Of a DNA stretch of 22,085 nucleotides, positions 837-19,049 are shown piece after piece. The first letter of the stretch is position 1, and each line of letters begins with the position of its first letter. The translations under genes were made by a program, and so were the position numbers. The notes under the pieces were generated by a model. The model saw nothing but the letters and a program-made list of their open reading frames with translations. It had not been told where the DNA came from and made no database searches. Origin of the DNA: a virus; IMG/VR virus record IMGVR_UViG_3300042521_001938, positions 1 through 22,085 of that record; one strand, written 5' to 3'.

Positions 837-3761
837 TCAAGCTTGTGCTTCTGTCCAGGACATACGCGCCTGGATGGAGTTAGTAGCAACTGAACTTACA
901 TTTGTTACCCTAACGGTAACCACATCTGGACCATCAGGATAAAGATTCGCAACAGTAGTAGGAACGTTAGCGTTTACGCCACCGCCAAGAATACTTGTAC
1001 CTAAATCACGAACAAGAGTAAGTTCCTGTTGAACAACGGATGGAGTGTATACAAAGAATGAGAAGATGCTTTCACCGCCCGTCACAGTTGTGCCAGCTGA
1101 ATGGTAGGAGACCTGTGCCAGGCTAGAGCCGCCAGCTGCCGAAAAAGTTCCGGAGCTTACCCGACCATTGAGGATGAGTTCAACGCGGAAGATAGCAGCG
1201 GTCCCAGTAGCAGCGATGTCCATCTGGCGCAAAGTCAGCTGCATACGATTAATCAGGTCTCTTGCACCAAGAGCACCGATCAAACCAGAGTCAACGCTTG
1301 GTGCCAGGCGAACACTCATTAGAGCAACAGTACCGCTTGCAGCAATGTTAGTCAAGGCTGTTGTCATGCCAGCCTGGAATACGAATGATTTGTCGTCGTC
1401 GTAACGACCATCCATGATTACAGCGGAGCCCCAGTGCGAAAGCGTAGAAGCAAATTGCGCGGGGAAGGATGCAACCTGTACTGGTGCAGTTGCACTATAT
1501 GTAAAAGTTTGAGCTGTAGCTGCGCCGCCACCGCTGCTTAAACCACCAGAACCACTGATGTTTGTAACAGCCCTGGTCAAACCAGTAAACGTTGTTGCTG
1601 TCTTGCTGTTGTAACGGATGTATTCAATTGCAGCACCTGTATTACCCGGCGCAGTAACAATTACAACACCTGACTGCGGAAAGTTAGCGGTGCTTGCAAC
1701 TGTAAGCGTGCTGAGTTCTGTGTTAGAAAGAGTTGCAGCTAACGTCGTAAAAAGCGGAATAGTATTGCACTCATAACGAGAGCACATGTTGCCGGAACGC
1801 ATGTAAGCTTCCGTATTACGGTTGCTGTTAGAAATGCGGTGACAATAAATGACCTCACCGTTTTGATCTTTAAAGCCGAAGCGAATTGCGCCAGCACCGT
1901 ACCAGGAGTAATCGATATACATCATCTGCATCTTTGTAAGATCCAGATTGAATCCGGCGCTTCCAGTGCCGTTGCAACGATCAAGATTCCACTGAGATTG
2001 CGAATATCTTTCATCAATACGCTTACTGGCAATACAGTTTGAAACGTTTGTAGCAGAACGGTATTCAGGATAAATAACCATTGAAGTATTACTGCTAATC
2101 GATTGGACCAAATAGGTCATGCCTCGAATAACAACGTAATCACCAGGAACTAACTGCTGTGCAAATTGAGTATTTGTACCGGTTACAGAACCAGAACCGG
2201 AGTTTACTGCCAGAGTTCCAGAAAGCTGTTTCGTACTGCTCCGTTTAACGGCGTACAAGGTTTGTCCATCAAACTCAAAAAAGAATCCGTTTTGTTCATC
2301 AAAAAGACCAATACGACTGCGAGCGCCGTACCAACCAGAAGGCGAAACAATGATAGCAGAACCTGTAGCTGTAGCAGCACTAGGAGTAGATGCTGCAGTG
2401 TAAGTAAAACTCAAGTCAGTTGGAACAGTTTGGACAAGAAACGTTCCGTTGTAAGCAGTTTCATTGCAACCAGTAACCACAACATAGGGTCCACCTGGGA
2501 CTGGATAGAGAGTTGATGTTGAGCCAGCAGCTGCAGTAATAGTTCCAGTTGGTGCGCTTCTTACATCAAACTGGAACACAGTCGGACTAAGAACAGCTTT
2601 AACTGTCCAATTGCCATTAGGAGGGTTTGTAGTCGCTGTTGTACCTGTCACAAAAACAGGGTCACCAACAGCAAAACCGTGCGGGTTTGTCGTTGTGCAG
2701 TTGATTGTTAAACTGTTGTTGATGAATTGTGAATAGGTAAACGCCAGGCCTGCACCAGCGTTAACAGCAATGCCAGTGTCAGAGACGTAAGACGGGTTTA
2801 AGTTGTGTGGGAATTTAAGGTTGACAGTGACAGTAGCGCCAGAAGAAGTAATCGAATCTACGTTAAATTCTGGTTTTACGCATGTACCAGTACTGAATTG
2901 AATGCCTTTACCGGACTGGTAACGGAAATAACGACGCGTTTGGCGAATCAGTTGGTTACCTGAATAAGGATAGCCAGCAGTAAAAGCAACGCCACCATCA
3001 AACGAACGATGGATAATGCTTCCGTACGGACGAGGATAAAGGTTGGTAGAACCTGCAGTGTTATTGATTGTGCCTGTTGGAGCGTTGATTACTGCAAAAG
3101 TAAACGTATTAGATGTTGGAGTAGTACGTACAACCCACGAACCGTTAGGTGGGTTTGTTGTTGCAGTAGTGCCAACAACATAAACGGCATCACCGATGCT
3201 TAAGCCGTGGGCATTTGTTGTTGTACAGGTAATAGTTGTAGTCGAAAAAGTAAATGCAGTTGTACCTGTTAACGGAATACCCGAGCCCGTATAAAAGTTA
3301 CCGCTGAAAATATACGTTTTTGTTGCGTCAAAAATTGAACCAGCACCAATTGTATTAGTTGCTACATACGTAAAGTTCACACCAGCGCTGACAGTGTTTA
3401 CTAGGAACCAACCGTCAGCCAAAGGATTGGTCGTACTCTGGACGTAAATAGGCGTACCGACTGCGGGAGGCGTGGTCGTCAGAACAGTGACAACGCGTGT
3501 GCCAGCGCCGGATACACCTGTAATGGTTAACGGTGTAGTAACGTCATAGAATGCACTGGGCCGGTTACTTAACAGGTTCAGCGATTCCCACTTAGTTGAC
3601 TGAGTGCTGTATTCAAAGTCAGTATCGATCAGTGCCTGCGGCGTAGAAACACGCAGTTTGCCCACAGGGTCCTGCAGAGTTTCACTGGGGGCAATCGGAA
3701 CGGGATTATAGAAACGATCAGTCCCGTCCGGGAACATGTGCTGAAAAGATGTAGCAGGCAC
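837..3761 (-). CDS. Large repeat-containing virion structural protein
   Basis: 974 residues from a GTG start at 3761 (MPATSFQHMFPDGTDRFYNP). The N-terminus, with 'SKLR/GKLRVSTPQALIDTDFEY' and 'WESLNLLSNRPSAFYD' style motifs, is a type I recognise from large cyanophage virion proteins; this is memory, not a search. Between about residues 80 and 470 there are several beta-hairpin repeats with a 'HGLSIGDAVYVVGTTATT' type core followed by 'NGSWVV' and 'NTFTF'. These resemble the FCCH-like repeats described in phage tail proteins. The C-terminal half is Ser/Thr/Ala-rich and predicted beta. There are no enzyme motifs. Its size, repeats and place downstream of the tail genes point to a tail, baseplate or fibre-base component. 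Confidence 0.85.
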   Translation of the reverse strand: MPATSFQHMFPDGTDRFYNPVPIAPSETLQDPVGKLRVSTPQALIDTDFEYSTQSTKWESLNLLSNRPSAFYDVTTPLTITGVSGAGTRVVTVLTTTPPAVGTPIYVQSTTNPLADGWFLVNTVSAGVNFTYVATNTIGAGSIFDATKTYIFSGNFYTGSGIPLTGTTAFTFSTTTITCTTTNAHGLSIGDAVYVVGTTATTNPPNGSWVVRTTPTSNTFTFAVINAPTGTINNTAGSTNLYPRPYGSIIHRSFDGGVAFTAGYPYSGNQLIRQTRRYFRYQSGKGIQFSTGTCVKPEFNVDSITSSGATVTVNLKFPHNLNPSYVSDTGIAVNAGAGLAFTYSQFINNSLTINCTTTNPHGFAVGDPVFVTGTTATTNPPNGNWTVKAVLSPTVFQFDVRSAPTGTITAAAGSTSTLYPVPGGPYVVVTGCNETAYNGTFLVQTVPTDLSFTYTAASTPSAATATGSAIIVSPSGWYGARSRIGLFDEQNGFFFEFDGQTLYAVKRSSTKQLSGTLAVNSGSGSVTGTNTQFAQQLVPGDYVVIRGMTYLVQSISSNTSMVIYPEYRSATNVSNCIASKRIDERYSQSQWNLDRCNGTGSAGFNLDLTKMQMMYIDYSWYGAGAIRFGFKDQNGEVIYCHRISNSNRNTEAYMRSGNMCSRYECNTIPLFTTLAATLSNTELSTLTVASTANFPQSGVVIVTAPGNTGAAIEYIRYNSKTATTFTGLTRAVTNISGSGGLSSGGGAATAQTFTYSATAPVQVASFPAQFASTLSHWGSAVIMDGRYDDDKSFVFQAGMTTALTNIAASGTVALMSVRLAPSVDSGLIGALGARDLINRMQLTLRQMDIAATGTAAIFRVELILNGRVSSGTFSAAGGSSLAQVSYHSAGTTVTGGESIFSFFVYTPSVVQQELTLVRDLGTSILGGGVNANVPTTVANLYPDGPDVVTVRVTNVSSVATNSIQARMSWTEAQA
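2518..2725 (-). repeat. Diverged repeat copy A within the 974-aa virion gene
   Basis: This ~200-bp stretch encodes 'HGFAVGDPVFVTGTTATT', 'NPPNGNWTVK' and 'APTGTITAAAGST'. It matches copy B at 3040-3245 in order and spacing, at both protein and DNA level (for example the 'aggagggtttgtagt' and 'aggtgggtttgttgt' segments). It is an internal duplication that has since diverged. Confidence 0.7.
3040..3245 (-). repeat. Diverged repeat copy B within the 974-aa virion gene
   Basis: This copy encodes 'HGLSIGDAVYVVGTTATT', 'NPPNGSWVVR' and 'APTGTINNTAGST', the counterpart of copy A at 2518-2725. The two copies are separated by about 315 bp of non-matching coding sequence. They are repeated protein domains and not a mobile element. 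Confidence 0.7.
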
Positions 3762-3824
3762 TGGCTTACTATTAATCTAGGCTGTTTAAATTCTAGCAGC
3801 GTTGTCAATTAAGCAGAAATTCTT

Positions 3825-4280
3825 TTAGCAACCAAGGTTAGATTTAAGCAGCCATTGGAATTTTTTGTGCGCACGCGCCCGCTCTACTGCCAAATCAAGA
3901 GTTAGGTCATCGCCAATAGCACCAGCTTGCTTTGCAATTTCAGCAAATTTATCTGCTAACAGATCAGAGTTTGCTGCCAGTGTGCCGATCAAACCTTCCT
4001 GATCAAAGCAGTCGTCTGGAACAGCAGGAAGTGTGGAATAGTTGAGGTCTTCAACTGTTTTAGGAGCAGCAATATCCAAAGAACGAAGATGCTCAGCGAT
4101 TGCATCAAGGCCATCTTGAAGCTCTTCATACATTGACTCCGTCAGTTTATGGATTGAGTAGAACTTACAGCCGATTAAATTCCAGTGCACAATATACGTC
4201 TGATTAAGCAAGTAAGACGTATCACGCAATGCTTGCACCAATGCAATGTAGCAACCTGTTTTTTTGTCTGTTTTAGCCAT
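3825..4280 (-). CDS. dps: Dps-like miniferritin (DNA/iron protection protein)
   Basis: 151 residues from ATG 4280. An in-frame ATG 12 nt upstream overlaps the previous stop; I prefer 4280 because GGTGA precedes it by 5 nt. The core 'YIVHWNLIGCKFYSIHKL' followed by 'YEELQDGLDAIAEHLRSL' is the Dps signature. The inter-subunit ferroxidase ligands all line up: His32, His44, Asp59 and Glu63, with spacings 12-15-4 as in E. coli Dps (H51, H63, D78, E82). Length is normal for the family, and the end keeps the 'EkfqWLLks'-type final helix. Known Dps proteins form 12-mers that oxidise Fe(II), using peroxide, and store iron; many also bind DNA. The N-terminus is short, so DNA binding is uncertain. The gene directly follows the Lys-rich gene at 4286 (stop-to-start gap of 5 nt), suggesting co-translation. 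A role in protecting DNA from oxidative damage during infection is inferred. Confidence 0.88.
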   Translation of the reverse strand: MAKTDKKTGCYIALVQALRDTSYLLNQTYIVHWNLIGCKFYSIHKLTESMYEELQDGLDAIAEHLRSLDIAAPKTVEDLNYSTLPAVPDDCFDQEGLIGTLAANSDLLADKFAEIAKQAGAIGDDLTLDLAVERARAHKKFQWLLKSNLGC

Positions 4281-4285
4281 AAGTG

Positions 4286-4585
4286 TCACCATTTTTCACG
4301 ATTAGCCCAATATGCAGCTGAACCTTTGCCTTTAGCAATGTTTTTAGCATGTCGAGCTTTAAAACTTGCACGTTTTTGTTTCATGCGTTCAGACTCACCT
4401 TCTTTAGGTTTGCCTGCTGTTTCTGCACCTTGCTCCCCAAACCGAATGATCTTTTCGCCGCCAGTGACATCTTTCCCGCACGCTTTAACAACATGAGATT
4501 TGGTGGGATGCCCTGGAGTGCGGACAGGTTTATTGCACTGCATGTGTGCTTTGGATAGCTTTTTTGCTTTAGCTCGATCAGACAT
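4286..4585 (-). CDS. Lys-rich small phage protein, DUF6321-like
   Basis: 99 residues from ATG 4585, which begins 2 nt after the stop of the upstream small gene (translational coupling). The sequence is strongly basic, with conserved-looking blocks: 'CNKPVRTPGHPTKSHVVKAC', 'EKIIRFGEQG', 'FKARHAKNIAKGK' and a C-terminal 'SAAYWANREKW'. I recognise this arrangement from many cyanophage and other phage genomes (the family I recall as DUF6321). The basic charge and Cys/His residues suggest nucleic-acid contact, but no function is established that I know of. It is followed at once by the Dps gene. Confidence 0.85.
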   Translation of the reverse strand: MSDRAKAKKLSKAHMQCNKPVRTPGHPTKSHVVKACGKDVTGGEKIIRFGEQGAETAGKPKEGESERMKQKRASFKARHAKNIAKGKGSAAYWANREKW

Positions 4586-4587
4586 TG

Positions 4588-4776
4588 TCAGACCTTGATT
4601 ACCCCACGGGCTACTTTGTCATTAACACTGTCAGGAACTTCACCCTTTGTTAACTGATCGAACCCAGACGGAATCCGTCCCTTCTGCAAGGAATCAATGC
4701 TGTCGATATAGTTAGCAAGAAAAACCGTTGAGTCGCGTTTAGCTTGCGATCCATCCGATGTAGGAATCACTGGCAA
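4588..4776 (-). CDS. Small hypothetical protein
   Basis: 62 residues ending in TGA at 4590-4588. The frame opens at TTG 4776 or GTG 4770; both lie inside the 3' end of the HNH gene, so the start is uncertain. The sequence, with 'VFLANYIDSIDSLQKGRIP', 'GFDQLTKGEVPDSVNDKVA' and a 'RGVIKV' end, is soluble, mixed charge, with no membrane segment. I do not recognise it. The tight spacing (2 nt) to the DUF6321-like gene supports its being translated. Confidence 0.55.
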   Translation of the reverse strand: MPVIPTSDGSQAKRDSTVFLANYIDSIDSLQKGRIPSGFDQLTKGEVPDSVNDKVARGVIKV

Positions 4777-5158
4777 TGTACGGAATAGCCGCGTCAGTTT
4801 GCGGTAGCTTTATGGAACAAGGTTTTTGCTCCATCCATTGCTTTAGTTTACCAAGCCTCTCCTCCGAGTAACAGGGATGGCTGTCTGTATACCAGACTTC
4901 AAGAAGAGTCGACGCTTTCGACTTGTTGCAGTTTGTACAACAACAAGCTAGGTTGTTTTTTACGTTATGACCACCTCTATGTTTTGGTAAGATATGGTCA
5001 ATCGTAGCCGTACCTTCGCTTAATTGTTTATCGCAGTAAGCACATTTCCATTGCCACTCTTCAAAGATGTGCTGTCTGAATTTTCGACGCGCAAGCTTAG
5101 GACTGAGAACAATAAGATTTGCTAAAAGGTCTTGCTCACAGTGGAACATGTCTGTCAT
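4739..5158 (-). CDS. Free-standing HNH endonuclease
   Basis: 139 residues if started at ATG 5158. It is a classic HNH (beta-beta-alpha metal) nuclease: a zinc pair CAYC (Cys39, Cys42), the catalytic 'TIDHILPKHRGG' with Asp54-His55, Asn67-Asn69 in 'VKNNLACC', and a second zinc pair in 'CCTNCNKSKAS'. Such proteins nick or cut DNA and often act as homing enzymes. The frame runs open through antisense tRNA-Leu sequence to 5272, but translating across a tRNA gene is unlikely. ATG 5227 is another possible start and would add a Cys-rich 'FCHGC' segment. Lying next to two tRNA genes is typical of phage mobile HNH genes. Its target is unknown. Confidence 0.85.
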   Translation of the reverse strand: MTDMFHCEQDLLANLIVLSPKLARRKFRQHIFEEWQWKCAYCDKQLSEGTATIDHILPKHRGGHNVKNNLACCCTNCNKSKASTLLEVWYTDSHPCYSEERLGKLKQWMEQKPCSIKLPQTDAAIPYIASDSYIGWIAS

Positions 5159-5219
5159 GCATCCATGACAAAACTGTATGGTGCATACACCTGCCTTTTG
5201 CGCTATGCTTTTGTCGCCA

Positions 5220-5303
5220 GGGAGCATGGCGGAATTGGTAGACGCAGCGGATTTAAAATCCGCAGGCGGCAACGCTGTGGGGGTTCAAGTCCCCCTGCTC
5301 CCA
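5220..5303 (+). tRNA. tRNA-Leu (anticodon TAA)
   Basis: The acceptor stem GGGAGCA (5220-5226) pairs with TGCTCCC (5296-5302), followed by discriminator A. The anticodon arm is GCGGA-TTTAAAA-TCCGC, giving anticodon TAA in a 7-nt loop. There is a long variable arm, as expected for class II tRNA-Leu, and a normal T-arm (GGGGGTTCAAGTCCCCC). CCA is not encoded. The gene has no intron and lies on the plus strand, opposite to the surrounding protein genes. It would read UUA (and possibly UUG) codons. Confidence 0.97.
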
Positions 5304-5305
5304 TT

Positions 5306-5378
5306 GCTGGATTAGCTCAGTGGTCAGAGCACTCGCCTTGTAAGCGAGGGGCCGTCAGTTCAAATCTGACATTCAGCT
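5306..5378 (+). tRNA. tRNA-Thr (anticodon TGT)
   Basis: The acceptor stem GCTGGAT (5306-5312) pairs with ATTCAGC (5371-5377) with one G-T wobble; the discriminator base is T. The anticodon arm is CTCGC-CTTGTAA-GCGAG, giving anticodon TGT. The D-loop (AGCTCAGTGGT) and T-loop (GTTCAAATC) are normal. CCA is not encoded. It follows tRNA-Leu after 2 nt and is presumably co-transcribed with it. Its last base overlaps the stop codon of the minus-strand gene at 5378. Confidence 0.97.
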
Positions 5379-5605
5379 TAATCAATCAAAGCGGAGATGT
5401 CGTTGCAATCTTCCGCTGGGTCATATTCAGCATCCTCTAGTAGCTTCAGTAAGAAGTAGTGGAGTTTGTCTGTAACCCAGCGTAAATCTTCATCGCTGAC
5501 ATTGCAAACGATGGCATTAAGACGAATTTCGCGGGAGGGTTCACGAATGTAATCAGCGATTAGCTCAAGCGCTCGATAACGACCTTTCGTAAACTCTCCC
5601 AACAC
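5378..5605 (-). CDS. Small acidic hypothetical protein
   Basis: 75 residues from GTG 5605, one base after the upstream TGA, so probably translationally coupled. Likely mostly helical ('YRALELIADYIREPSREIRL', 'LRWVTDKLHYFLLKLLEDAE') with an acidic end. There are no motifs I recognise and no membrane segment. It follows a coiled-coil gene and the endolysin, so a lysis-related role is possible but unsupported. Confidence 0.6.
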   Translation of the reverse strand: MLGEFTKGRYRALELIADYIREPSREIRLNAIVCNVSDEDLRWVTDKLHYFLLKLLEDAEYDPAEDCNDISALID

Positions 5606-5606
5606 C

Positions 5607-5810
5607 TCAAAGAACCTCGCTGATTGCTTCTGCTTCGTTCATTTTTTGTTCCTCTTTCTGGAAAATTTCCAGCAGCTCCAAAGCACCTTGAACTTTTAAG
5701 TACCCTTCTTTAAGAGCAAAAACATTAGTTTCGGCTTGGCGAATTTGGTTGGCAAGGTCAGCCAGTTGCTCTTTGAGCTTGGGACCCATTTCTTTGATGA
5801 TTGCTTCCAT
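5607..5810 (-). CDS. Small coiled-coil protein (hypothetical)
   Basis: 67 residues from ATG 5810, 4 nt after the endolysin stop. Nearly all of it is helix with heptad-like spacing ('LKEQLADLANQIRQAETNVF', 'YLKVQGALELLEIFQKEE'), suggesting a coiled coil. There is no signal peptide or transmembrane stretch, so it does not look like a spanin on its own. I recall similar short proteins in cyanophages without assigned function. Being immediately downstream of the endolysin makes a lysis accessory role conceivable. Confidence 0.7.
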   Translation of the reverse strand: MEAIIKEMGPKLKEQLADLANQIRQAETNVFALKEGYLKVQGALELLEIFQKEEQKMNEAEAISEVL

Positions 5811-5814
5811 GAGA

Positions 5815-7062
5815 TCAAAGTTTTTTAAAGTTTAACCAACACCAGCCACTTCCGCCACCCTCAACAAAAAACCTGGGGTCAGTGTTCTTGAAACTGTAAC
5901 GAACATTTTTTCCAGCTTCTGCGCCGGTCTTTGCCCAGCCTCCGTTAACGAGATCAAGCTCTCCATACGGGTCCTGTACCAGCCAGTATCCATCCCCATA
6001 TCCAGAAATAACCACGAAGTGACCACTACCAGAAGGATCAGATACAGCTCCATGATGAAGAATACCGGCAACAACAGGTTTGCCTTTGTCGATCTGATCT
6101 TTGACATCTTGCTCATCTGCTGTCTGCGTGAATTTAGCATCAACGTTTAATTCTTTCAAGGCACAGATATGTGGGTAACGCGCTGGACTATCACCGTACT
6201 TATTGACAATCTTTAAGTAATCTATATCGTCATTAATACCAGGCACGTCTAAGTACTTTAAGCACATAGCAATGCTGCTGGATTGGCATTGGCGCCAGCC
6301 TTGAGGACCGTTATCAACTTGATAAAAGTAAGGGAAGTTGCGCAGGTAACGAAGATCACCTGTAGTCGCATACGGCTTGACTTCTGTTGTTGTTACAAGT
6401 CCCTCCCAATGTTCATCAAACACCCACCACTTACCGAGGCCAAAGCCTAATTCAAGAAGCGTGTGTTTATCTTTTTTATCAAGAACCTTACAGTTTCGAA
6501 TTGTACGTTTTGCAACAACTGAAGACTTTTCATCATTGCTTAATTCCGATGAAGGAATAGGACGTTTTTTGAACCAGGTTTTTGTGTTGCTGGTAATCTC
6601 AACTGTTCCTGTTTTTAACTCGGGAGCAGCAGAACAAAAAACTTCAACTTCTTGAGTTCGTCTACGACTCAAACCTTCTAAAATTTTTCCATCTCCTTTG
6701 TTCCAGCGGGGCAGCTCTTCTTTGGCTACTGTGTTTGGGTCTTCTCCAGCATTTAGGCGCTTAAGTAGAGTGGATTGACCAAGGGCACCGGCCCCGACGT
6801 TAAAACAAAAAGAAACAAGAGCATCAAACTGATGCTGATTAATCGGCACCTTAACAAGGTTCTCTACTGCTTTTTCTGTGCTGGCAAGATCAGCCTTCAA
6901 TAAAATTTCTGCATGCGCCGACGTAATCTGCGTATTTGGTTTAACGTCTGGACCTGTGTGACCGTAACCTACAGTCCAAATCCCTACGGCATCTTTATAG
7001 GAGACGCAACGTAAACCTTCAAAAGCTTTAATTAGTTCGATTCCAGCTTTAGATGTTTTCAT
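5815..7062 (-). CDS. Two-domain endolysin: GH24 lysozyme + C39-like cysteine peptidase
   Basis: 415 residues from ATG 7062; an upstream in-frame TTG at 7074 is less likely. Residues 1 to ~145 are a T4/P22-type muramidase: Glu15 in 'AFEGLRC', Asp24 in 'YKDAVGIWTVGYGH' and Thr30 give the family's E-8-D-5-T spacing. A middle segment (~155-225) may be a wall-binding SH3-like domain. Residues ~240-415 look like a Peptidase_C39_2 domain: Cys259 in 'GWRQCQSSSIAM', His348 in 'GHFVVISGYGDGYWLVQDPY' and Asp364. The enzyme would cut both glycan strands and, by inference, peptide cross-links of host peptidoglycan. There is no signal peptide, so it needs a holin. It lies directly downstream of the tail fibre gene. 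Confidence 0.9.
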   Translation of the reverse strand: MKTSKAGIELIKAFEGLRCVSYKDAVGIWTVGYGHTGPDVKPNTQITSAHAEILLKADLASTEKAVENLVKVPINQHQFDALVSFCFNVGAGALGQSTLLKRLNAGEDPNTVAKEELPRWNKGDGKILEGLSRRRTQEVEVFCSAAPELKTGTVEITSNTKTWFKKRPIPSSELSNDEKSSVVAKRTIRNCKVLDKKDKHTLLELGFGLGKWWVFDEHWEGLVTTTEVKPYATTGDLRYLRNFPYFYQVDNGPQGWRQCQSSSIAMCLKYLDVPGINDDIDYLKIVNKYGDSPARYPHICALKELNVDAKFTQTADEQDVKDQIDKGKPVVAGILHHGAVSDPSGSGHFVVISGYGDGYWLVQDPYGELDLVNGGWAKTGAEAGKNVRYSFKNTDPRFFVEGGGSGWCWLNFKKL

Positions 7063-7096
7063 TAACGCAGTCAACTCAACTTACATCTTAATTGAT

Positions 7097-9562
7097 TCAA
7101 GCCGTCTCCAGTGCGGTAACTTTGTTTTCTAAAGTTTCAATGCGATCCACTGCTTCTTGAAGTGCTTTAATGGCCATCCAATACATTTGTTGTTCTTTAA
7201 CGCCGAGTTGATCAGGTTGGCTTTGTGTTGCTTTTTGGAATACTGTAATAACTTCCGGAGAAATTTCAGCAACCTGCTGAGCAATAACACCAAAATTTAA
7301 ATCACTTTCATTTGACTGATCTTTGTACTGATAGCTGACAATTTCCCACTGCTTTAAATGCTCCCACGTACTGTTTGCAGGTAAAATATTTTTTTTAAGA
7401 TTGATGTCAGAAAGATTGACGTTATTTGCTTGAAAATTTGCAATGCCGCCGTTAGATCGAATTGCAGCTCTTGTTGCTGCGTTATCTGTGCATAACAGAA
7501 AATCATTAACATTTCCGTTTGGAGCAGCGTTGTCATAAGCAATTAACAACCCATTACAATTTGACGCAGTACTATCTACATTGCGAAAGGCGCATCGATG
7601 GGAACCTTGCCAACAAAACTCGTGCGTTCCAATTGGAGCTACGCTTGTACCAAGTGCTAATGTCCCAATGCCAGTCAATCGCATGCGTTCAACACTTGTA
7701 GTTCCAAAAACAAGTGGTGTTGCACCGTTTGTAAGAATTAAACCAGTGCTTGTATTCTGGAACGTTAAAACTCCAAGGTTTGCGTTTGCTTGTCCACCAG
7801 TTGTGCCAGTTGCAGTTGATCCATACTGTGAGATCGCAGTGCCAATAAATGTAGATCCTGATGTGTAATTTTGTACCTGGGCTTCAATGCGTGCTTCACC
7901 ACCATTAGTCGCATTACGGCAAACAATACGATTACCGTCACCAATAACTTCAAATTTGTTTTCAGGACTACTCGTCCCAATTCCCACGCGGCCGGAGCTG
8001 TCGATGCGGAGGCGTTCCGTAGGACTAGCAGCGCCGTCGGCCGTAGTGGAGAACACTAGGCGGCCCGGCATGTCATTACTGCCAGGCGTTGCATCTACCC
8101 CCGCTACAATACTGGCTCCTGGAGTATCAAGGTCGGTGCCATCTGCACCGCAGAAGTAAATTTCTCCTAGTGTATCGCCGTTTTGAACAATAGTACTAGA
8201 GCCGTTAACACTACCACGGGATTTGCCCAGCATGAGCAAAGGGCCGGCTGTGCTCGCATTGTTGAGAATTATGTTTACACCTGATGATGCGTAACCTGTG
8301 CCTTCTGTTTGAAGAACCCCTGTTTGGCCATAAAGACTACGTGCCGTACTCGATCCCACCAGCAGCTTGCCGGAGCTGTCGATGCGGAGACGCTCAGCAT
8401 TCACTGTCCAGAGTGTTAATGCATTACTTTGATAACCTATGTATCCATTTGGGTCGACACTGTTAACAAAACGTAGATATAAATCCGCGTTAGACGTTTG
8501 AAATGTTGCGGGCGTAATTGCGCTACCAGAAACGTGCAAAGATGTGCTAGGACTACTAGTCCCAATCCCCACGCGGCCGGTGCTGTCGATGCGCATGGCC
8601 TCGAGCATCGTGCCGCCTGCATTATTAACTGAAAATTGCAAATAACCAGCATAGTTGGCTGATGTGGCATTTACTTTGCGGCCTGCTATTTGTCCAAAAG
8701 CGCTTGAGCCACCTCCGGTCTGGCTGACCCCACCTAGGCTGATTGCACCACCAGTGTCGGCAGCGAGTGCGCTGGATGTCCAAACACGGAGGGCATTAGA
8801 TCCGCCGCCGTTGTCGTTGATGGGGCTGGTAGCAAATCTGAGATCGAGCAGGCTTCCTGGGCTGCTTGTTCCGATGCCTACGTTGCCGGAACTGTCGATG
8901 CGGAGACGTTCGGTTGTACCGTCTGCAGTTCTAAACCGATGCTGGTTACTGTCAAAAACAGCTAAATTGGCAAGCGTTGGGTGCGAACCACCGTACAATT
9001 CAATGTTTGCGCCGTTTCCTGCGCCACCGAATATGGTTAAGTTTCCTGTACTGTTAGAACAATCAATAATTCGACTACCACGTATATTTACTCCAGCAAC
9101 ATCAACAGTTAGTGATGATGTGTCAAATGTGACTGTTTTTGTTCCATTAGAAGTAAAACCAGCAGACCCTGAAGAAAGACGGTAAAAACCTGTATCCGTA
9201 TCTTGATCAAATGTAATAGAGGGAACAGTTGCAGTGCCGTCAGGGAAATTTGCTCCAACGTTGATGTAATCTGCTCCCGCTAAAATAATGCCGAAAAACG
9301 TGGCTCCTCCAGCTGGAGCATTTTTAAATACAATGTCTGTTCCTACAAGCCTAAAACCTTCTGTTGCGGTGTCGTCGGGACGCAAAACAACGCCGTTAAC
9401 AGAAATCAAGCATTGTTGTGGGTTAATAGGAAACGGTACTGGAGAAGCTCCGCCGACCCTAAGTGGAAATGTTGTTGTGACTCCGTTAAAAGAAGCCCGA
9501 ATATCATCAATGTTTAAGTAGCTGCTATAGGCTGCTTGAAGATTGTTACCAAGATAGGCCAC
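7097..9562 (-). CDS. Tail fibre with C-terminal S74 intramolecular chaperone
   Basis: 821 residues from a GTG start at 9562. The N-terminus ('MAYLGNNLQAAYSSYLNIDD', then 'FPLRVGGASPVPFPINPQQC') is a virion-attachment type I know from cyanophage fibres. The middle carries at least five copies of an 'RLRIDSSGxVGIGTSSP' unit. The last ~106 residues are a Peptidase_S74 domain: 'LSDINLKKNI' with the probable self-cleavage Ser718, then 'FGVIAQQVAEISPE' and a final coiled coil ('RIETLENKVTALE'). In this family the chaperone trimerises the fibre and then cuts itself off. The protein should bind the host receptor. GC-rich repeat blocks alternate with AT-rich parts, suggesting recombination. Confidence 0.92.
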   Translation of the reverse strand: MAYLGNNLQAAYSSYLNIDDIRASFNGVTTTFPLRVGGASPVPFPINPQQCLISVNGVVLRPDDTATEGFRLVGTDIVFKNAPAGGATFFGIILAGADYINVGANFPDGTATVPSITFDQDTDTGFYRLSSGSAGFTSNGTKTVTFDTSSLTVDVAGVNIRGSRIIDCSNSTGNLTIFGGAGNGANIELYGGSHPTLANLAVFDSNQHRFRTADGTTERLRIDSSGNVGIGTSSPGSLLDLRFATSPINDNGGGSNALRVWTSSALAADTGGAISLGGVSQTGGGSSAFGQIAGRKVNATSANYAGYLQFSVNNAGGTMLEAMRIDSTGRVGIGTSSPSTSLHVSGSAITPATFQTSNADLYLRFVNSVDPNGYIGYQSNALTLWTVNAERLRIDSSGKLLVGSSTARSLYGQTGVLQTEGTGYASSGVNIILNNASTAGPLLMLGKSRGSVNGSSTIVQNGDTLGEIYFCGADGTDLDTPGASIVAGVDATPGSNDMPGRLVFSTTADGAASPTERLRIDSSGRVGIGTSSPENKFEVIGDGNRIVCRNATNGGEARIEAQVQNYTSGSTFIGTAISQYGSTATGTTGGQANANLGVLTFQNTSTGLILTNGATPLVFGTTSVERMRLTGIGTLALGTSVAPIGTHEFCWQGSHRCAFRNVDSTASNCNGLLIAYDNAAPNGNVNDFLLCTDNAATRAAIRSNGGIANFQANNVNLSDINLKKNILPANSTWEHLKQWEIVSYQYKDQSNESDLNFGVIAQQVAEISPEVITVFQKATQSQPDQLGVKEQQMYWMAIKALQEAVDRIETLENKVTALETA
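7966..8911 (-). repeat. GC-rich direct repeats in the tail fibre gene
   Basis: A ~45-bp unit, 'cccaatccccacgcggccgg' followed by 'agctgtcgatgcggagacg', recurs at about 7966-8016, 8548-8602 and 8858-8911. A shorter copy is at 8379-8395 and a degraded one near 7690. On the coding strand it spells 'RLRIDSSGxVGIGTSSP'. The near-identical DNA, embedded in a less GC-rich gene, offers homology for fibre-module exchange. Confidence 0.85.
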
Positions 9563-17094: not shown

Positions 17095-17901
17095 TCAGAT
17101 GTCGTCGCCACCCACTTGGGAAGCAAAGTCAATCAGACCCTCAATGTCGCGCCAGGAGACGGCGGCTTGAGGACGAATGTAGTTCACGCGACACACAAGG
17201 TAGCCTGCACGTCCAGCATCAAAATCAGTTTGGCTGATGAAGATACCGGCGCCATTTACCGTTGTGGAGGTGATGGCAGTGGTGTTGAACACCTTGAAGG
17301 TGGTGTCCGAAGTTACTTTGTACATCATGCTGTTGGCAAGGTCGCCAGCAACAATTGTGCTAGTAACGCTGGACGGGAAGGGAAGACCAGCAGCCGTAAC
17401 GCCAGACAGGCCCTGAGTAAACAGGGAGCTGGCAGCAGTGATGCTTGATGTAGCAGCGGCAAGACCGTTCAGCTGAGTAGCAGGAATACCAAAAGGTACG
17501 CCAGCGTTGTTAGGACCAAGAACCAGCAGCTCGGAAGTGGTACCACCAATGTTGGCAGTCACAGGATCAGCGGGGAAACCAGTAACTGTGTAGTCTTGGG
17601 CCACCGCGATCGACGCACCCACAACGTAGGTAGGACGAGCTGAAGAAGCTGGCACCACGAGAGAGGTGCGGTTGTCGCGCACACGGTCGTCAGGACGACG
17701 ATCCGGGGAAGGCACGGTGATGTCAAAGCTCTTGAAGTTAGCTTTGTCAGCAGCAAGGTTGCTGATCCTGACGTAACCAATAGTTTCGTAAGCTTCAACA
17801 CCTGGCCAACCAAACACACCCTCGCCGTTGTAACCAGAGAGGCGGTTAACCTGGTTGCCTGGTTGCAGAATTGCACCAGCGTTTGATTTATAAGTAGCCA
17901 T
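17095..17901 (-). CDS. Head-associated structural protein (decoration or minor capsid)
   Basis: 268 residues from ATG 17901, with a strong Shine-Dalgarno GGAGG at 17915-17911, 9 nt upstream and directly after the capsid gene stop. It begins 'MATYKSNAGAILQPGNQVNR'. It has a Ser/Thr/Ala-rich beta middle and ends 'VSWRDIEGLIDFASQVGGDD'. No enzyme motif is seen. Being the first gene after the capsid gene, with a strong ribosome site implying high output, it is likely a decoration or second abundant virion protein. It could also be a tail-tube type protein; the sequence does not decide. Confidence 0.82.
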   Translation of the reverse strand: MATYKSNAGAILQPGNQVNRLSGYNGEGVFGWPGVEAYETIGYVRISNLAADKANFKSFDITVPSPDRRPDDRVRDNRTSLVVPASSARPTYVVGASIAVAQDYTVTGFPADPVTANIGGTTSELLVLGPNNAGVPFGIPATQLNGLAAATSSITAASSLFTQGLSGVTAAGLPFPSSVTSTIVAGDLANSMMYKVTSDTTFKVFNTTAITSTTVNGAGIFISQTDFDAGRAGYLVCRVNYIRPQAAVSWRDIEGLIDFASQVGGDDI

Positions 17902-17915
17902 TGTTAGTTACCTCC

Positions 17916-19049
17916 TCAAACGATGGTGAAAGCTGCGGTGACGAAGTCCTTGTTCAGGTTGGCAAAGCCAGCGTACAGCTGCCAAATCAAGATGATAAAG
18001 CGGCTGAAGTCATCGTTGTTGTTGATGAGAACCTGAGCGTTGGGGCCACCGATGCCCACGCCAACGGCCTGAGGACCGAAGAACAGAGCAGGAGGAGTGT
18101 TGTGAGACACAGCGCCGAGACCGTCGCCAGTGTCCACAGTGATGGACTTGTCAGCAAAGTTGGTGGACTCGAAGAAACGTACGCCTTCAAAGACAAAGCC
18201 AGAAGGCATGATCGGTTCACCAGCCACGAATTGAGCTTGGCCGTACTGACCGCCGCCATAGATGGAGGCGTTGGGAGCCATGGCACCCATAAGGGGGTTA
18301 GGCTGGCCCATGCCAGGGTAACGAGCCACTTCACGGAAACCTTGGTCAGCACGCAGATCCTTCATGAAAGAGGGATCAGCAATACAGCGGTAGTAACCGT
18401 CAGCAAAGACAGGCACATTGCGCTTGCGGAGTTGCTTGACAACTTCCAGAAGGTCAGTTTTGACGTTGAACTTATAACGCTCAGAAGCGTATTCTGTAGC
18501 GGAATAAGCAGTCAGCGTGGTAGAGCCAGTCTTGATCTTACCGTTGGGGTAGTAGTAACCACCTTGGGTGTCAGAAGAGGCACCACGAGCTTCCGATTTC
18601 GAAAACTCATCAAGGAACACACGATCGCGCCAGCGGCGATAGTCGTCTAGCAGGGTCAGCGAACCGATGGACTGGTGGAACATGTTAAGGTTCCCGGTGT
18701 CCAGCAGCAGACGCTGAGCGGTCATCAGAGTCTCACGAGCAATTTTGAAAGTGCTCGGGAGGTTGGAGTTGTTCGGGTCGGCAGGACCAGTGTACTCACG
18801 CAGAGAGACGAGCACTTTGTCCTTAACGATGGAGCGGCTATTAGCCGTACCAATCGTTTGGTCTTGGGTACGCTCACGCTGAGTTTTGGTGCCGGGGTTG
18901 CCCCAGAAACGGTACCGGTCTAACTGAACAGTTTGACCAGGCTGTTTAGTGAAGTCGTGGACAACAACAGGCTCGGCTGCCATTTCCACAATATAAGCCG
19001 GGTGGGGACGGTACAGCTCCGCGCCCAACAGCTTGGGAAAATCGTTCTC
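17916..19049 (-). CDS. Major capsid protein, 3' exon
   Basis: About 377 codons, forming the bulk of the capsid protein after the group I intron. It opens ~'ENDFPKLLGAELYRPHPAYI', with no ATG. A TTG at 19028 could be misread as a start, but the frame runs on upstream into the intron core and stops only at 19088-19086. Blocks such as 'EPVVVHDFTKQPGQTVQLDR' and 'FWGNPGTKTQRERTQDQTIG' are typical of HK97-fold major capsid proteins of the P22/N4-gp56-like kind; I cannot name the exact subgroup. The segment 'YRRWRDRVFLDEFSKSEARG' is helical and probably in the E-loop/spine region. Context: downstream of portal and scaffold. The exact junction is unresolved (19043-19056). Confidence 0.85.
   Translation of the reverse strand, partial: ENDFPKLLGAELYRPHPAYIVEMAAEPVVVHDFTKQPGQTVQLDRYRFWGNPGTKTQRERTQDQTIGTANSRSIVKDKVLVSLREYTGPADPNNSNLPSTFKIARETLMTAQRLLLDTGNLNMFHQSIGSLTLLDDYRRWRDRVFLDEFSKSEARGASSDTQGGYYYPNGKIKTGSTTLTAYSATEYASERYKFNVKTDLLEVVKQLRKRNVPVFADGYYRCIADPSFMKDLRADQGFREVARYPGMGQPNPLMGAMAPNASIYGGGQYGQAQFVAGEPIMPSGFVFEGVRFFESTNFADKSITVDTGDGLGAVSHNTPPALFFGPQAVGVGIGGPNAQVLINNNDDFSRFIILIWQLYAGFANLNKDFVTAAFTIV

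Follow-up and report, generated by a model that had tools for sequence, protein, structure and literature searches.

The window analysed here, the whole 22,085-nucleotide stretch corresponding to positions 1 to 22,085 of the IMG/VR virus record IMGVR_UViG_3300042521_001938, contains a gene coding for a Dps mini-ferritin on the minus strand (3825..4280). Dps is well known as a stress protein of bacteria. Surrounded by lysis and tail genes, the gene has a fixed position within a conserved run consisting of lysozyme, small ORFs, HNH endonuclease, phrog_7595, Dps and a tail gene. In the window all of these lie on the minus strand. The cassette is headed by the lysis gene, coding for a lysozyme fused to a C39-like peptidase (5815..7074), and continues with the HNH endonuclease gene (4739..5272), which in 76 loci lies upstream of Dps at a distance of at most 2.5 kb, a small conserved ORF (4588..4776) and the gene of the phrog_7595 protein (4286..4585). 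Downstream of Dps and in the same orientation there is a gene for a large protein (837..3761), a 78% identical homologue of which follows Dps in L055; as to its function, it is probably a component of the tail or adsorption apparatus. The lysozyme and C39-like peptidase domains are separate or differently combined in relatives. Genes for tRNA-Leu(TAA) and tRNA-Thr(TGT) are located inside the lysis-Dps cassette (5220-5378), on the strand opposite to that of the late-type genes.

The major capsid protein (17916..19028, minus strand) has a sole relative among 50,697 phage records, namely that of Synechococcus phage S-EIV1, with 70% identity. This makes the photosynthetic host proposed in the preliminary description plausible, and the host is probably a Synechococcus-type cyanobacterium. 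A capsid gene 86-100% identical to that of the window was found in 19 of the 31 Dps-carrying contigs tested; IMG/VR classes all these records as linear, and they are often fragments, so the remaining contigs may end before the capsid gene. In the 75.9-kb relative G005, the genes coding for DNA polymerase A, primase-polymerase, single-stranded DNA-binding protein (SSB) and ThyX are gathered on one strand in one half of the genome, and the structural and lysis genes are on the other strand, a gene order which suggests that Dps is expressed late. A scan of positions 3500-7300 returned fewer promoter-like sites than expected by chance and slightly more terminator-like sites. Many long S-EIV1-like contigs possess no ferritin-family gene at all, and Dps is therefore probably dispensable.

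The Dps reading frame and its upstream neighbour

The longest open frame of the Dps gene spans positions 3825-4292 and codes for 155 aa, with an alternative in-frame start at ATG 4292 (4281..4292, minus strand; MVTL-MAK) that overlaps the end of the upstream gene. A comparison of start contexts across relatives indicates that this is probably not the true start. The conserved start is ATG 4280 (MAKTDKK...), giving a protein of 151 aa with the stop codon at 3827-3825. It is favoured because the residues MAK are kept across relatives, because GGTGA or GGTAA stands at the same place just 5′ of the start in many of them, and because a stop interrupts the frame equivalent to the longer form in L009 and L040. 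In the window, the Shine-Dalgarno-like GGTGA (4286..4290, minus strand) overlaps the TGA stop codon of the upstream gene, pointing to translational coupling. Residue numbers below refer to the 151-aa form; 4 has to be added to obtain the numbering of the alignments, which are based on the 155-aa form.

The N-terminal tail is, as noted earlier, short: it consists of about eight residues, MAKTDKKT, with three lysines (codons 1-8; 4257..4280, minus strand) and has low confidence in the structural model, being disordered. Across the viral clade the tail has a net charge of 0 to +3, and the window Dps as a whole is acidic (net charge -7, pI 5.0). DNA binding via a Lys/Arg-rich tail is not universal among Dps proteins.

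The protein encoded directly upstream, whose gene overlaps the long Dps frame, has 99 aa, a pI of 10.3 and a net charge of +16 (+11 to +16 across relatives). Its residues 3-99 match positions 3-96 of the 96-position phrog_7595 profile with an E-value of 3.9e-34. The preliminary description took the two genes for a coupled pair of Dps and a Lys-rich DUF6321-like protein. The pair is real: in 73 of the 78 loci with room for it, phrog_7595 precedes Dps on the same strand, usually overlapping or less than 70 bases away, and in the divergent relatives G043 and G047 the two genes are adjacent in reversed order. The DUF6321 (PF19846) label had to be dropped: no Pfam family matches the window protein and only 2 of 16 relatives match that family (best E-value 0.006), while DUF5754 matches 6 of the 16 (best 4e-12). 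No structural match was found for the phrog_7595 model (pLDDT 72).

That phrog_7595 might supply the DNA binding for Dps, as was suggested earlier, is a guess, since each gene also occurs without the other. Phrog_7595 is present in 47 phage records, with Dps known here in only one of them, S-EIV1, where it is of a different type; the long S-EIV1-like contigs G042 and G049 harbor phrog_7595 and no ferritin-family gene; and Dps lacks phrog_7595 alongside in 5 of the 78 loci. The N-terminal half of the phrog_7595 protein is kept (CNKPQRTPxHPTKSHVVKAC, with Cys17 and Cys36 invariant), and at least four different kinds of C-terminal module occur among otherwise similar phages, as if swapped by recombination. 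In L009, L011, L012, L037 and L038 about 0.5 kb of extra sequence lies between phrog_7595 and Dps, and in L009, L011 and L037 the phrog_7595 protein carries a hydrophobic C-terminal extension.

Fold and ferroxidase site

The identification of the protein as a phage-encoded Dps is upheld by profile, structure database and model alike. The Pfam Ferritin family (PF00210) matches it with 43.5 bits, above the curated cut-off of 24.5 (E-value 4e-11), the phrog_3636 profile matches with 1e-18, and the best sequence match in the PDB is Pseudomonas aeruginosa Dps PA0962 (8e-14). The score against the equivalog model for E. coli-type Dps, NCBIfam NF006975, is 54.1 bits, below the curated cut-off of 114. 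An AlphaFold2 model of the monomer, built with 41 relatives in the alignment (pLDDT 89, pTM 0.85), contains helices at residues 10-38, 42-71, 80-83, 98-126 and 129-150 of the 155-aa form, that is, the Dps fold with its four long helices and short BC helix, and the best 50 PDB matches listed by Foldseek are all Dps proteins with TM-scores of about 0.75-0.88. The length and the final helix (129-150) are normal, as described before. Dps proteins are dodecameric mini-ferritins, and this one may likewise assemble into a 12-mer cage, with residues 64 and 139 (see below) differing from those of its cellular relatives.

In canonical Dps, the ferroxidase centre comprises two His residues and an Asp or Glu of one chain together with an Asp and a Glu of the partner, and the fifth ligand (E. 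coli position 67, Listeria Asp47) may be either Asp or Glu (PMC6675082). The four residues named in the preliminary description, His32, His44, Asp59 and Glu63, were found exactly in the 12-15-4 spacing claimed for them, and the canonical site is indeed complete, although the list had overlooked Trp33 and the fifth ligand, Glu48. All codons are on the minus strand: His32-Trp33 (4182..4187) and His44 (4149..4151) are invariant in all 62 distinct viral Dps sequences used for the conservation counts, as is Asp59 (4104..4106), the ligand provided by the partner subunit. Glu48 (4137..4139), which aligns with the fifth canonical ligand of site B, is kept as Glu in 27 of the 62 and replaced by Gln in the other 35. 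Glu63, the bridging ligand, never varies among the 62 sequences and is followed by His64 (4089..4094). Relatives may have a weak site B, because over half of the clade substitutes Gln for the fifth ligand and because the last helix has Leu, and not Met, following its conserved Trp. The ferroxidase site is probably active, as had been proposed, judging by the invariant ligands and strongly purifying selection (median dN/dS 0.056 over 42 usable pairs).

Some residues set the clade apart. His64 and Lys139 (3864..3866, minus strand) are each present in 62 of the 62 viral sequences, whereas in the 76 cellular Dps proteins compared, obtained by the wider pattern scan described below, position 64 is always Arg and position 139 is Glu or Asp in 75. 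By alignment the two would correspond to E. coli Arg83 and Asp156 and may be in contact. Cys10 is invariant in the viral clade, and so are Asp124 and Asp129 in the region of the last helix, which correspond in the alignment to the ferritin-like pore region.

The viral clade and other Dps proteins

Two scans of IMG/VR yielded Dps relatives with 58-100% identity, the second confirming 132 stretches, and more than 100 related virus contigs carry a Dps gene. In the tree, 64 viral sequences, including those of the divergent G043 and G047, are located on one side of a branch with a support of 100, and 41 cellular sequences together with two other phage Dps are on the other side. No member of the clade was found in GTDB genomes with clade-specific patterns, which, being exact, can miss divergent members. 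A wider pattern set, biased by one Rhodobacterales sequence among its queries, recovered cellular Dps no more than 43% identical, mostly from Rhodobacterales. These alphaproteobacterial proteins, the nearest cellular sequences found in that query-biased ranking, differ from the viral clade in having Arg64 and Glu139 and no Cys10. An origin from a cyanobacterial host gene received no support: there was no cyanobacterium among the best 80 genome hits obtained with these biased patterns, and the cyanobacterial DpsA model scores the window Dps at only 24.6 bits. The His-type Dps of cyanobacteria (NpDps4, TeDpsA), the presumed hosts of the phage, share the fold and have His78 (PMC6675082) where the window protein keeps Asp59; assignment to this type was ruled out, as Asp59 is kept in all 62 viral relatives. 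Canonical Dps of E. coli, Listeria innocua and P. aeruginosa (PA0962, 28% identity and a TM-score of about 0.84) have the four-helix fold, BC helix and five ligands in common with the window protein, whereas the window clade is virus-only and is distinguished by His64/Lys139 instead of Arg/Glu, a Cys10 that never varies, a Leu following the conserved Trp and a short tail.

The presence of the gene stands; since phage-encoded Dps is already on record, however, its novelty is less than the preliminary description implied. The literature searched contained no paper that describes a function for phage Dps. S-EIV1 itself had appeared from tblastn to possess no Dps, a reading overturned by a profile search, which found a divergent protein annotated as "DNA-binding ferritin-like protein" (AHV82153, phrog_3636) encoded elsewhere in its genome. 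This protein of 184 aa comes from the same phage lineage as the window and keeps the His, His, Asp, Glu core. It differs in having 25-35% identity to the window type and a locus outside the lysis-tail cassette. In its type Trp33 is replaced by Leu or Phe and Glu48 by Gly or Lys, and the tail is Pro-rich, with 37-41 residues ending in Lys, compared with the short tail of the window protein. The S-EIV1 type is encoded at 50 viral loci. A CDS next to it (L275:2154-3620; S-EIV1 17153-18619) is annotated as sulfate adenylyltransferase and has no Pfam or PHROG match; its homologue is present in only 3 of these 50 loci.

The two types were found together in none of the 50 contigs compared (29 with the S-EIV1 type and 21 with the window type, the single cross-hit per contig being the resident gene). 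Since the split in Dps type tracks the capsid lineage, with 70% identity between the two, it is counted as one lineage difference and not as many independent ones. The tree joins the S-EIV1 type beside the window type with a non-significant support of 86.9 and thus lends no support to independent origins. The T4-like Synechococcus phage S-SRM01 (Kyanoviridae) encodes yet another, third form of Dps (QPX48251), which resembles that of the window in the His, Trp, His, Asp and Glu residues and the His after the bridging Glu; it differs in its 28% identity, the Gly at the fifth-ligand position and its closer relation to cyanobacterial and haloarchaeal DpsA models. Many further phage Dps proteins are listed in BFVD. 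What is new here is the size and conservation of the subfamily, its fixed late-type context, the His/Lys swap and the mutual exclusion with the S-EIV1 form.

Possible roles of the phage Dps

The role which we consider fairly probable is that of a cage removing Fe2+ and H2O2 late in the infection of a cyanobacterium, and we infer its assembly, chemistry, timing and benefit as follows. Twelve subunits made late in infection would build a cage in which every dimer interface holds an iron site; the cage would use H2O2 to oxidise Fe2+ and store the resulting Fe3+, so that both Fenton reagents would be removed. This would take place in a still-illuminated cell in which the iron-rich photosystems are breaking down and phage DNA is being replicated and packaged. 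Canonical Dps centres favour H2O2 over O2 (PMC7762939). DNA binding, if there is any, would be secondary and mediated by the short Lys-containing tail.

It is rather unlikely that the main job of the protein is instead to bind or compact phage or host DNA, either alone or together with the basic phrog_7595 protein. The three lysines of the window tail, the clade's neutral to positive tails, and a very basic neighbour that immediately precedes Dps in 73 of 78 loci and stays adjacent in two divergent relatives despite the reversed order would all suit such a role, but the Dps is acidic with a tail of about eight residues, phrog_7595 occurs in many phages with no detected Dps and is missing beside Dps in five loci, its model has no structural match, and coating of DNA as such does not need a strictly kept ferroxidase site. 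A cage placed in or on the virion, where it would shield the packaged DNA or bring iron to the next cell or the tail, is improbable. The position of the gene among lysis and tail genes is compatible with it, and Dps-like structural matches in proteins named "Prohead protease" in BFVD (A0A6J7XDU5, A0A6J7WPK9 and A0A6J7WIS1 from uncultured Caudovirales), fusions known from database names and structural matches, suggest that some Dps domains may be routed into capsids; the window Dps, for its part, has neither a fusion nor a packaging signal.

We give an equally small chance to the idea that the protein serves chiefly to store iron for phage or host enzymes that depend on it, and not as a defence against peroxide. 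The chemistry would be the same and a 2OG-Fe(II) oxygenase-like gene is present in the genome of a close relative, but the cages of Dps are small, and H2O2 is the oxidant that the canonical site prefers (PMC7762939). That the gene is a decaying remnant or a chance resemblance is hardly credible given the purifying selection, the invariant ligands and the intact frames in relatives, which refute it for the family as a whole. A more specialised proposal, which we regard as quite improbable, is a virus-only cage that does not mix with host Dps and either acts on phage DNA together with phrog_7595 or is built into the virion; the non-mixing is proposed because the conserved Arg/Glu pair has been re-made as His/Lys. 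If this were true, the protein would amount to an iron-peroxide shield of the genome that is specialised to the virus.

The His/Lys swap offers a handle on whether the cages of virus and host remain distinct. Sister lineages have two Dps forms that exclude each other, which allows carriers and non-carriers to be compared. That a large Dps subfamily, confined to viruses, keeps its active site intact and its position fixed beside lysis and tail genes in a cyanophage lineage that is widespread suggests that phage production in photosynthetic cells is limited by iron and peroxide.
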